From NCBI RefSeq assembly GCF_030845995.1, contig NZ_CP132719.1, positions 2,604,001-2,668,000 on the forward strand: a stretch of 64,000 bases of DNA, given 5' to 3'. The stretch's first letter is position 1; the number at the start of each line of letters is the position of its first letter. The position numbers and the translations under genes were made by a program. Of the stretch, positions 10,943 to 36,845 are shown piece by piece. The notes under the pieces are model-generated. The model had not been told where the DNA came from. It did no database searches and saw only the letters and a list, made by a program, of their open reading frames with translations. The stretch comes from Geothrix sp. 21YS21S-4 (GTDB taxonomy: Bacteria > Acidobacteriota > Holophagae > Holophagales > Holophagaceae).

Positions 10943-11329
10943 TCAGCGGAGTTCCGCGCCCCGCTCCGCCAGCAGTTCGCGGAGGACGGAGCGGTGGCAG
11001 CGGGCCTCGTCCTCGCAGTAGCAGCCCACCGCCAGATCCGTCCGGTGCGACAGCGCGGCGAGGAGATCCAGCAGCCGGGCCCGTTCCGGCTGGGCCATCT
11101 CCGCGCGGTATTTCTTCCTGAAGGCGGCCCAGTCGCGGTCGCTGGCGGCGGCCTGGGCCTCCTTCACCAGCCCCTCGCTGGGGGCCGCCTCCGGCATCCA
11201 CAGGTCGTAGAAATCGCGGGCGGCGAACTCCGCCTTGGGAACGCCCCGGGGCGGGCGGCGCACCGTCCCCAGCCGGAGCCCCTCCCCCGGTTCCCTCGGA
11301 CTGCCCAGGCGCACCACGCGGACGGCCAC
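10943..11329 (-). CDS. DUF488 family protein
   Basis: A 128-residue cytosolic protein of the DUF488 family, whose biochemical role is not established. The family signature lies at the C-terminus, CYCEDEARCHRSVL, with paired cysteines and a histidine that may bind metal or act catalytically; the central FYDLWMPEAAPSEGLV also fits. The GTG start at 11329 is supported by GAGGAGG four bases ahead. It is convergent with the PstS-like gene (three bases between the stops) and divergent from pruA. Confidence 0.85.
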   Translation of the reverse strand: MAVRVVRLGSPREPGEGLRLGTVRRPPRGVPKAEFAARDFYDLWMPEAAPSEGLVKEAQAAASDRDWAAFRKKYRAEMAQPERARLLDLLAALSHRTDLAVGCYCEDEARCHRSVLRELLAERGAELR

Positions 11330-11398
11330 GGTTCCTCCTCGCAAGCGGTCCCTTAGGATTCCCCTCCGGTCCGGAATCCGTCCAGGGGCATGGCGTTT

Positions 11399-11413
11399 TT
11401 GACAATGCGTCAA
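11399..11413. promoter_or_regulatory. Inverted repeat TTGAC-N5-GTCAA upstream of pruA
   Basis: TTGACAATGCGTCAA forms five-base arms around a five-base centre in the 201-base divergent interval between the DUF488 gene and pruA. TTGACA could also be a -35 box, but no -10 box lies at 16-18 bases. An operator is a possible reading. Confidence 0.3.
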
Positions 11414-11530
11414 GCCCGTATCCGCCCTCGGCGGAGGCGAAAGCGGGATTCGGCGTCCAACCCCACCCGCCGGTATTCTGGATGGATGCCGGCACGGCCG
11501 ACCCGCTCCGCCGGAAGGAGATTCCATCCC

Positions 11531-13162
11531 ATGTCCAATGCCATCTTCAGCCTGCCCACCCCCCACAACGAGCCCATCCTCTCCTACGCCCCCGGCTCGA
11601 AGGAACGCGCCCTCCTCAAGGCCGAACTGGAGCGCCAGTCCGCGGTGGAGCTGGACATTCCCCTGATCATCGGCGGGAAGGAAGTCCGCACGGGCCGCAC
11701 CAAGGCCGCCGTCTGCCCCCACGACCACCAGCACGTCCTGGCCCGCTACCACGAGGCCGGCGAGACCGAAGTGCGCATGGCCATCGACGCCGCCATGGCC
11801 GCCAAGAAGGACTGGGAAGCCACGCCCTGGGAGGACCGCGCCGCCGTCTTCCACAAGGCCGCCAGCCTGATCTCCTCCAAGTACCGCTACATCCTGAACG
11901 CCGCGACCATGCTGGGCCAGTCGAAGAGCGCCTTCCAGGCGGAGATCGACAGCACCTGCGAAGCGGCGGACTTCTTCCGGTTCAACACGAAGTTCATGGA
12001 AGAGATCTATCGGCAGCAGCCCCAGTCCGATCCCCAGGTCTGGAACCGGATGCAGTTCCGCGCGCTGGAAGGCTTCGTGTTCGCGGTGACGCCCTTCAAC
12101 TTCACCGCCATCGCCGCCAACCTGCCCACGGCCCCCGCCATGATGGGCAACACCGTGGTGTGGAAGCCGGCGTCGACTTCCGTGGTGTCCAACTACTACC
12201 TCATGCAGCTCTACAAGGAAGCGGGCCTCCCCGACGGCGTGATCAACTTCCTGCCCGGCCGCGGCTCCATGATCGGCAAGCTGGTGATCGAGGATCCCAA
12301 CCTCGCGGGCCTCCACTTCACCGGCTCCACGGGCGTGTTCAACGACATGTGGAAGACCATCGGGAACAACCTGGACCGCTACCGCGCCTATCCCCGCCTG
12401 GTGGGCGAGACCGGCGGGAAGGACTACATCTTCGTCCACGCCAGCGCCGACGTCGAAGCCGCCGCCTCCGCCATCGTCCGCGCCGGATTCGAGTACCAGG
12501 GCCAGAAGTGCTCCGCCTGTTCCCGCGTCTACGCGCCCGCTTCGCTGTGGGCCGAGCTGAAGAAGCGGGTGCTGGAGCTGATGGCCGGCATCCGCATGGG
12601 TGACGTCCGCGACTTCCGCAACTTCTTCAACGCCGTCATCGACGAGCCCGCCTTCGACAGCACGATGAAGTACATCGAGCTGGCGAAGCAGGCGCCGGAC
12701 GCCGAGATCCTGGTGGGCGGCAAGGGCGACAAGTCCAAGGGCTACTTCATCGAGCCCACCATCATCCTCACCACCAACCCCAAGTTCGTGAGCATGGAAG
12801 AGGAGATCTTCGCGCCCGTCGTCACCGTCTACGTCTACGACGACGCGAAGCTGGACGAGACCCTGCGCCTCCTGGACGAGACCTCGCCCTACGCCCTGAC
12901 CGGCGCGATCTTCGCGACCGACCGCTACGTGATCAACCACCTGACCGAGGCCCTGGCCAACAGCGCGGGGAACTTCTACATCAACGACAAGTGCACCGGC
13001 GCCGTGGTCGGCCACCAGCCCTTCGGCGGGGCCCGCACCTCGGGCACCAACGACAAGGCCGGCAGCTTCCTCAACCTGGTGCGCTGGACCTCCCCGCGCA
13101 CCATCAAGGAGAGCTTCACGCCCCCCTACGACCTGAGGTTCCCCTTCCTCGAAGCGGAATAG
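11531..13162 (+). CDS. pruA: L-glutamate gamma-semialdehyde (1-pyrroline-5-carboxylate) dehydrogenase
   Basis: NAD-dependent aldehyde dehydrogenase that oxidises glutamate semialdehyde to glutamate, the last step of proline and arginine/ornithine catabolism. At 543 residues it matches the stand-alone, ALDH4A1-like form rather than the fused bacterial PutA. The catalytic cysteine lies in YQGQKCSACSRVY, the general-base glutamate in LVGETGGKDY, and the Rossmann region holds TPFNFTAIAANLPTAP. ATG 11531 begins the conserved N-terminus and has AAGGAG ten bases upstream. No proline dehydrogenase gene is adjacent. A strong terminator follows at 13179-13212. Confidence 0.93.
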   Translation: MSNAIFSLPTPHNEPILSYAPGSKERALLKAELERQSAVELDIPLIIGGKEVRTGRTKAAVCPHDHQHVLARYHEAGETEVRMAIDAAMAAKKDWEATPWEDRAAVFHKAASLISSKYRYILNAATMLGQSKSAFQAEIDSTCEAADFFRFNTKFMEEIYRQQPQSDPQVWNRMQFRALEGFVFAVTPFNFTAIAANLPTAPAMMGNTVVWKPASTSVVSNYYLMQLYKEAGLPDGVINFLPGRGSMIGKLVIEDPNLAGLHFTGSTGVFNDMWKTIGNNLDRYRAYPRLVGETGGKDYIFVHASADVEAAASAIVRAGFEYQGQKCSACSRVYAPASLWAELKKRVLELMAGIRMGDVRDFRNFFNAVIDEPAFDSTMKYIELAKQAPDAEILVGGKGDKSKGYFIEPTIILTTNPKFVSMEEEIFAPVVTVYVYDDAKLDETLRLLDETSPYALTGAIFATDRYVINHLTEALANSAGNFYINDKCTGAVVGHQPFGGARTSGTNDKAGSFLNLVRWTSPRTIKESFTPPYDLRFPFLEAE

Positions 13163-13282: not shown

Positions 13283-13356
13283 TCACCACCAAGGCACCAA
13301 GAAAAGCTCTACTTCCTGGGGATGCCTTCTTGGTGCCCTTCGCGTCTTGGTGGTGA
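13283..13356. repeat. Gene-less relative of the TIR element, copy A (degenerate hairpin)
   Basis: The outer arms TCACCACCAAG (from 13283) and CTTGGTGGTGA (13346-13356) match the ends of the 456-bp element at 31497-31952; the next part, GGCACCAAG, is also shared. An eight-base insertion (CTTCGCGT) breaks the right arm. It lies between the convergent ends of pruA and a histidine kinase gene. Directly beyond it, 13384-13440 holds a second imperfect hairpin made of the related words CAAGACGCCAAGA and TCTTGGCGCTCTTGGCGGTG. Together they look like decayed small mobile or REP-type sequences. Confidence 0.7.
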
Positions 13357-13456
13357 TCCTTATTTTTTGAATGAAAAGGAGTACAAGACGCCAAGAAGAC
13401 AAAGACAGGGTTTTTGCAGGTCTTGGCGCTCTTGGCGGTGAAAAAAAAATTGGATG

Positions 13457-31476: not shown

Positions 31477-31496
31477 CGCCTGCTCCCCCAACAACT

Positions 31497-31952
31497 GATC
31501 ACCACCAAGACACCAAGGCGCCAAGAACTGCAAAAGCCCTATAAGACGAATCGAGAGATTCCGCTCTTCATGAGAGGGACATTGAAGTTGAGAAGAAAAC
31601 CAAGCCTGCGGCTCGAAAGCTTCAAATAGGTCAGAAGCTGGGCGTCGTGGATGGGAAGAAGCTTCTCCAACATCTTCAGTTCGATGATGGCAATGCCATC
31701 CACGAGCATGTCCAACCGGAATCCACCATCAAGGGTCAAATTCTCGTAACGGATTGGAACCAGGACCTGAGTCTCGACAGTCGCACCTCGTTGCCTCAAC
31801 TCGTGAGCAAGGCAGGCTTCGTACACACTTTCCAGCAAACCAGGACCCAACGTCCGATGCACTTTGATCGCTGCATCGACGATGAGAGTCGCCACCTTCT
31901 CTTCCTCTTTCGAAAGATCTTTTCTTGGTGCCTTGGTGTCTTGGTGGTGATC
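31497..31952. mobile_element. 456-bp element with 31-bp terminal inverted repeats and one nuclease-fold gene
   Basis: Bases 31497-31527 and 31922-31952 are inverted repeats of 31 bases with one mismatch (GATCACCACCAAGACACC... on the left). Between them lies one gene, oriented as pyrG and argS are. The element occupies almost the whole gap between the argS stop (31970) and the pyrG ribosome site. The same end sequences occur without a gene at 36782-36845 and 13283-13356. No target-site duplication is evident. No transposase motif is present. Confidence 0.7.
31539..31895 (-). CDS. GxxExxY-family protein (PD-(D/E)XK nuclease-like fold)
   Basis: A small protein of about 118 residues. It shows the signature GxxExxY in [13 protein letters not shown] and nuclease-like motifs: aspartate in [12 protein letters not shown]-x-K in [11 protein letters not shown], and glutamine in [11 protein letters not shown]. 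This is the pattern of the PDDEXK_3 / GxxExxY family, whose function is not established. The best start is GTG 31895, eight bases after GAGG; the frame continues upstream through the terminal repeat and could add residues. It lies inside the TIR element. Base composition (many AT-rich codons) differs from the GC-rich neighbours, a sign of transfer. Confidence 0.82.
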
Positions 31953-31969
31953 TTGTCCCGGCTGGATGC

Positions 31970-36781: not shown

Positions 36782-36845
36782 TCACCACCAAGGCACCAAG
36801 AAAAGCTCTTTTGCAGTTCTTGGTGTCTTGGTGCCTTGGTGGTGA
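36782..36845. repeat. Gene-less relative of the TIR element, copy B (perfect hairpin)
   Basis: Nineteen-base perfect inverted arms, TCACCACCAAGGCACCAAG (36782-36800) and complement (36827-36845), enclose 26 bases that repeat parts of the arm (TTCTTGGTGT). The arms match the ends of the 456-bp element. It lies between the convergent stops of the methyltransferase and DHS-like genes. Confidence 0.75.

Follow-up and report, generated by a model that had tools for sequence, protein, structure and literature searches.

How does a unit of 456 bp, with one small gene between two inverted repeats, come to fill the space between argS and pyrG, and what might move it? The unit lies at positions 31497-31952 of a window of 64,000 nucleotides (the whole stretch of DNA analysed) from Geothrix sp. 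21YS21S-4. The original prediction cast it as a discrete transposon-like element with a nuclease-fold protein, GxxExxY. We consider that its best explanation overall, and probably the right one, is a minimal REPIN-like mobile element with autonomous and gene-less copies. Among openly accessible journal papers we found none that ties GxxExxY to repeats or describes repeats of these sequences.

Anatomy of the argS-pyrG element and its protein

The argS-pyrG gap of this genome measures 493 bp (31477-31969), and 456 bp of it are element, which two inverted arms and one gene make up and which occupied/empty comparison with congeners delimits; the element fills the gap, as predicted. The left arm (GATCACCACCAAGACACCAAGGCGCCAAGAA, 31497-31527, forward strand) and the right arm (31922-31952, reverse strand), its inverted copy with one mismatch, are 31 nt each, 97% complementary and spaced 394 nt apart, and their inverted-repeat (IR) score is 28.5, whereas 200 shuffles of the flanks never exceed 15, so that the inverted ends with a single mismatch are borne out. 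The label "terminal inverted repeat" holds in part: the ends are inverted, but each is itself made of three direct CRCCAAG units, 8 nt apart (CACCAAG at 31503-31509, CACCAAG at 31511-31517 and CGCCAAG at 31519-31525 in the left arm).

The sole enclosed gene (31539-31895, reverse strand) belongs to PF13366/TIGR04256, and no DDE transposase is encoded when the element is tested as a DDE IS or MITE. Its open frame continues into the right arm, where there is no start codon, and the GTG at 31893-31895 is the only plausible in-frame start near the arm, giving a protein of 118 aa. Profile searches place this protein above the cut-offs for both TIGR04256 GxxExxY (134.7 bits, cut-off 35) and PF13366 PDDEXK_3 (130 bits, cut-off 22), in agreement with the single GxxExxY gene with D, ExK and Q motifs that had been predicted. 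G24, E27, Y30, D67, E77 and K79 are among the residues invariant in 47 sequences, at least 90% of which also keep Q91 and Y95; D, ExK and QxxxY are the motif set of RecB/Cas4-type nucleases. AlphaFold2 gives a high-confidence model (pLDDT 95.3, pTM 0.88). Among solved structures it matches SSO0001, a Cas4 nuclease, best (Z 9.7 over 98 residues); other PD-(D/E)XK proteins come next, and in Foldseek LHK-Exo and lambda exonuclease are also near the top, albeit with E of about 0.01. A search for a sequence match to any solved chain found none. The protein models as a minimal Cas4/RecB-like PD-(D/E)XK fold and is a predicted nuclease.

At argS-pyrG, pairs of GxxExxY genes with unsaturated dS give dN/dS of 0.03-0.14, and such purifying selection implies that the protein is selected for function. 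For the named family TIGR04256 GxxExxY / PF13366 PDDEXK_3, no function has been reported. A search of viral contigs found no relative, and plasmids yielded 7 distant matches with no sign of recent transfer. A GxxExxY gene is annotated in the genome of a haptophyte virus, Chrysochromulina parva virus (PMC12085832), so the family reaches eukaryotic viruses.

Arms with and without a gene

Is the association between gene and arms peculiar to this gap? The source genome (3.08 Mb, one contig) carries six GxxExxY genes, and all six lie between inverted repeats, each pair different in sequence, with units of the types CGCAGATG, AACACCGATG, AAGCGGAGG, CACGGATGAA, CACCAAG (the window element) and CGCAGAG. 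Five of the six pairs score clearly above shuffles (18.5-40 versus 12.5-15); the sixth reaches 16 versus 14 in its best ungapped part and is, by eye, longer on both sides. We then counted flanking inverted repeats, at an IR score of at least 15, around 108 testable genes from 80 loci of many phyla and 29 of relatives: 74 of the 108 had them, compared with 3 of 327 random intervals from the same loci. Mismatched arm pairs reached the threshold in 21 of 322 cases, which indicates that some arm families recur between phyla. In a larger set that includes more relatives, inverted arms flank 139 of 183 genes (86 of 103 in relatives, 53 of 80 across phyla) as against 3 of 191 among unrelated ORFs of 100-180 aa from these loci. 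On these counts, the linkage of gene and arms extends across phyla.

Inverted repeats at 139 of 183 testable genes also dispose of the idea that such ends never flank other GxxExxY genes. The expectation that these genes would lie between the same repeats elsewhere stands for the architecture, which is shared, but not for the sequence, which differs per element; we accordingly rejected a single repeat common to all GxxExxY genes. The best internal period is 8-11 in 136 of the 139 armed loci, and an arm usually comprises three direct units, 8-11 nt apart (CACCAAG, CGCAGAG, CACGGAG, CGCAGATG). Its commonest form is ACC-RC-nn-AG, 1-3 bases, CRC-nn-AG, 1-3 bases, CRC-nn-AG; variants replace AG by AT or take other forms (ACAGGATTAACAGGATT, CACGGAA, CATCCCCTT), and some arms extend into the GxxExxY reading frame. 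Protein tracks arm type only among proteins more than about 60% identical, and deep co-evolution of protein and arm core, for which we found nothing beyond about 60% identity, was rejected. In other phyla, the arm recurs within 3 kb of its own element in 13 of 46 loci, compared with 2 of 184 for foreign arms. At L303, L316 and L307, the GxxExxY gene has a different repeat on its flanks, a long GC-rich hairpin (CATGGGGGGCGCCAGGGCCGCG...).

Arms also enclose other genes. Of 26 testable loci with free-standing four-helix S23 genes (TIGR02436) in relatives, 20 show the gene between inverted iterated arms, and in 16 of these the unit is 7 nt long (GCTATCA, GTCTTCA, GGCATTA, GTTCAAA and others, L176-L205); S23 would share the lifestyle of GxxExxY as a second such protein family. 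G008 (L265, C6, about 11101-12157) has a DUF4268 gene on its own, with no GxxExxY gene, between CCAAG arms; this 1146-bp insert is at a site that in other species is empty or holds a GxxExxY element, and other cargo is therefore possible. DUF4268 was nevertheless rejected as a second arm-linked nuclease family, as only the G008 copy has arms and four others have none. Likewise rejected was a cargo reading of the long stretches from arm to arm in G001 (around argG) and G020: they consist of ordinary genes between solitary arms.

Gene-less versions of the same ends, which the original prediction had reported in the window, are indeed present as inverted, hairpin-forming CCAAG pairs at 13285-13354 (70 bp, z -6.6) and 36784-36843 (60 bp, z -7.4). 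Beside the former, at 13384-13441, a degenerate second pair of CCAAG type can be read from the sequence. The window-element arm has 6 matches in the 64-kb window (0.00 expected), and pattern searches of the genome count about 55 or more copies of this arm type, 67 by the strict CCAAG pattern; a generic arm pattern finds 152 copies, versus 0 for the reversed control. The 29 readable CCAAG pairs are all inverted and span 58-79 bp (median 76). While the two pairs examined by folding form hairpins, single arms of the window element give 0 kcal/mol.

Where might gene-less copies come from? The inner ends of the 36784-36843 copy are both of the distinct inner ends of the gene-bearing element (AAAAG, AACTGC), and likewise in some other pairs, as internal deletion would give. 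Deletion can be caught in progress at argS-pyrG in G022, where the gene is part-deleted and the arms are intact, and at ftsA-ftsZ, where remnants with arms measure 395 bp in G029 and 242 bp in G008. The site of the 36784-36843 copy is empty in G002, G010, G029 and G033; in G018 and G007 (L363, L364) it holds gene-less pairs with 7-nt units (GGCTATCAGC type). Elsewhere, in G044 (C15, C16, C18, C26), arms of the ACAGATG and ACGAATG types alternate in arrays at a spacing of about 180 bp, and G057 has more than 350 arms, many of them near-identical copies of ACCGCAGATGGCGCAGATTTCCGCGCAG.

Arm number appears to depend on gene and arm type, keeping in mind that the statistics are only indicative because the genomes are related, the patterns were picked post hoc and the classes are limited to checkable genes. 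The count of GxxExxY genes correlates with that of arms (Spearman 0.79 over 60 genomes, 0.72 within the genus), the median number of generic arms being 47.5 in 40 genomes with a GxxExxY gene and 0 in 20 without. For strict CCAAG arms, where the classes comprise only genomes whose genes were checked, 13 genomes with a CCAAG-armed gene have 12-67 (median 26) and six without have 0-5 (median 2). CACGGAG arms number 43 in G008, 25 in G020 and 23 in G024, all with a CACGGAG-armed gene, and 0 in most other genomes, including the source genome, which lacks such a gene; the draft G031 has 3, G009 has 2 (its own pair only, with no dispersed copies despite its CACGGAG-armed gene), and the exceptions are G010 with 6 and G011 with 10. 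Arms without a detected GxxExxY gene occur in G043 (39), G005 (19) and G045 (14), and G046 has GxxExxY genes and no generic arms. Counts of Y1/RAYT transposases show no correlation with arm counts, and Y1 is absent from most arm-rich genomes; RAYTs, being absent or uncorrelated, were rejected as makers of the GxxExxY repeats. The source genome (G000 C1) has five identical-scoring IS200-type Y1 transposase copies, at 1121467, 1771272, 2192230, 2445343 and 2777555.

Empty sites and movement

Empty sites were found in relatives at every locus examined, namely argS-pyrG, thiolase-HBD, a third source-genome locus, rpoB-rpoC and ftsA-ftsZ, and they support the predicted discrete, transposon-like unit. 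The argS-pyrG gap itself, for which the prediction had allowed that relatives might show no empty sites, is empty in ten congeners, with 8 or 30-31 bp, and measures 366-551 bp in eleven occupied genomes. Occupancy is scattered on the flanking-gene tree, requiring 6 changes versus 7.3 expected at random, and the sister species G022 and G023 differ in their arm variant (CGCCAAG, CACCAAG). Since the occupied alleles have a common pyrG-proximal stretch outside the left arm, allelic exchange or loss may explain part of this patchiness. At thiolase-HBD, some species are empty, two have a CGCAGATG element, others have a CACAGATT element, and five have gene-less pairs of two further kinds; one gap therefore serves several families.

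Movement is most clearly indicated for the CACGGAG element, which occupies two non-homologous sites, ftsA-ftsZ in G009, G020 and G024 and rpoB-rpoC in G008 and G031. Its proteins are 79-90% identical between the two sites, and conservation in the alignment runs from CACCACGGAG to CTCCGTGGTGAA, dropping off outside the arms. Each of the two sites is empty in other species, where the rpoB-rpoC gap is a uniform stretch of 48 bp. No target-site duplication is visible at the rpoB-rpoC, ftsA-ftsZ or argS-pyrG junctions, among species 6-20% diverged, so that a short one could be missed. We regard it as highly probable that GxxExxY gene and arms form a mobile unit. The elements sit in gaps of housekeeping operons (argS-pyrG, ftsA-ftsZ, rpoB-rpoC, thiolase-HBD), near the downstream ribosome site, and these four gaps are taken by different families in different species.

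Possible mechanism, rival explanations and known systems

How might such a unit move? An autonomous copy would consist of one small Cas4/RecB-like GxxExxY gene between inverted arms of about three direct units, and a non-autonomous copy of two arms and a short spacer that can fold into a long hairpin. The protein would recognise its own family of arms by binding to their repeated units. With the two arms base-paired into a hairpin in single-stranded DNA, such as that of the lagging strand, it would cut at or near the base of the stem; host replication and repair would then join the released or copied unit into intergenic gaps, and no target duplication would arise. Protein and arm sequence would drift together, and several gene and repeat families per genome would follow. 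The sequence comparisons are best accommodated if the GxxExxY protein itself moves or maintains the unit, and we think it fairly likely that it acts on the arms; binding, cutting and host-mediated joining are steps that we infer. The route through a single-strand hairpin follows the example of REPIN-RAYT (PMC3116915), is likewise inferred, and is put forward tentatively, as something we would doubt rather than trust.

The main rival holds that GxxExxY is a passenger: REPIN-like arm pairs would be moved by an unlinked or host enzyme, and the gene would be carried because it serves the host or the element, say as a nuclease in recombination or repair. That G008 has a DUF4268 gene alone between CCAAG arms is consistent with this, other cargo being possible, as are the few genomes that have arms and no GxxExxY gene. 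If the gene were merely carried along, however, it would be hard to see why one protein family is tied to many unrelated arm sequences in many phyla, why copy number follows the matching gene, and why Y1/RAYT are absent from most arm-rich genomes. What speaks most strongly for arms as substrates, and not as generic packaging, is the agreement of arm type with protein family: S23 arms are of another kind (period 7). On balance, we consider a passenger role unlikely.

A homing-type endonuclease, which would cut the unoccupied allele so that the element is copied in by recombination, with dispersed arms as by-products, strikes us as improbable. The PD-(D/E)XK fold does occur in homing endonucleases, the same intergenic sites recur patchily in many species (the 6 changes versus 7.3 at random), and occupied argS-pyrG alleles share sequence outside the arm; but the CACGGAG element, at two non-homologous sites, is not confined to an allelic cognate site, dozens of gene-less copies lie at unrelated sites, and such an enzyme needs no inverted iterated arms. 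Alternatively, imagine a self-regulated selfish gene or toxin-like module, its arms serving as operator or terminator hairpins and as recombination homology, with no dedicated transposition reaction. Arms at both ends of a small gene, some reaching into the reading frame, and arm pairs that fold into strong hairpins would suit it, yet high-copy gene-less inverted pairs of defined length and arm-bounded units at new sites beside unrelated genes would be left unexplained, and we give it very little credence.

If instead the nuclease does the moving, as we favour, the element would be mobile with no known transposase or recombinase at work, bearing on the relation of Cas4-like nucleases to mobile DNA, and would be a new class once the nuclease is shown to move it. 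That a new class of transposable element spans most bacterial phyla, its sole protein a stand-alone Cas4/RecB-like PD-(D/E)XK nuclease that mobilises itself and gene-less copies by recognising their iterated-unit arms, while S23 elements (7-nt units) form an independent class that lives in the same way, we consider a serious prospect, if one that falls just short of an even chance. Were this reading of GxxExxY and S23 true, it would explain many short bacterial repeats that have so far had no explanation. A large, unstudied family gains a likely role, and many short intergenic repeats of bacterial genomes gain a likely source. The hypothesis is directly testable, as every GxxExxY gene predicts its own binding sequence.

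Among known systems, Cas4/RecB/lambda-exonuclease-type PD-(D/E)XK nucleases share the D, ExK and QxxxY motifs, and the nuclease domains of AdnAB and AddAB are further structural matches; unlike these types, GxxExxY is much shorter (118-123 aa) and stands alone inside a repeat-bounded unit. S23 intervening sequences of 23S rRNA, earlier proposed as mobile elements (PMC4990558), are also one-gene units, of about 430 bp, with terminal inverted repeats, but they differ in their unrelated protein and in units of 7 rather than 8-11 nt, and the classical ones lie inside rRNA genes. Classical DDE IS elements and MITEs have terminal inverted repeats, autonomous and internally deleted copies and empty sites in common with GxxExxY elements, which differ in having no DDE transposase, no target-site duplication that we could see, and internally iterated arms. 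In REPIN-RAYT systems (PMC3116915), too, inverted doublets of about 60-110 bp that form hairpins are scattered between genes, one linked gene has these repeats on either side, and a genome has several families. However, the protein linked here is PD-(D/E)XK (PF13366/TIGR04256), not HUH/Y1; a REP is itself an imperfect palindrome, whereas the GxxExxY arm is a direct iteration that does not fold singly; and a genus holds several arm families with free core drift, most arm-rich genomes lacking Y1. As neither a palindromic arm nor a Y1/HUH gene was found when both were looked for, the element is not a member of REPIN-RAYT. By analogy, it nonetheless resembles REPIN-RAYT in how it would work, and more closely so than it does a classical terminal-inverted-repeat transposon.
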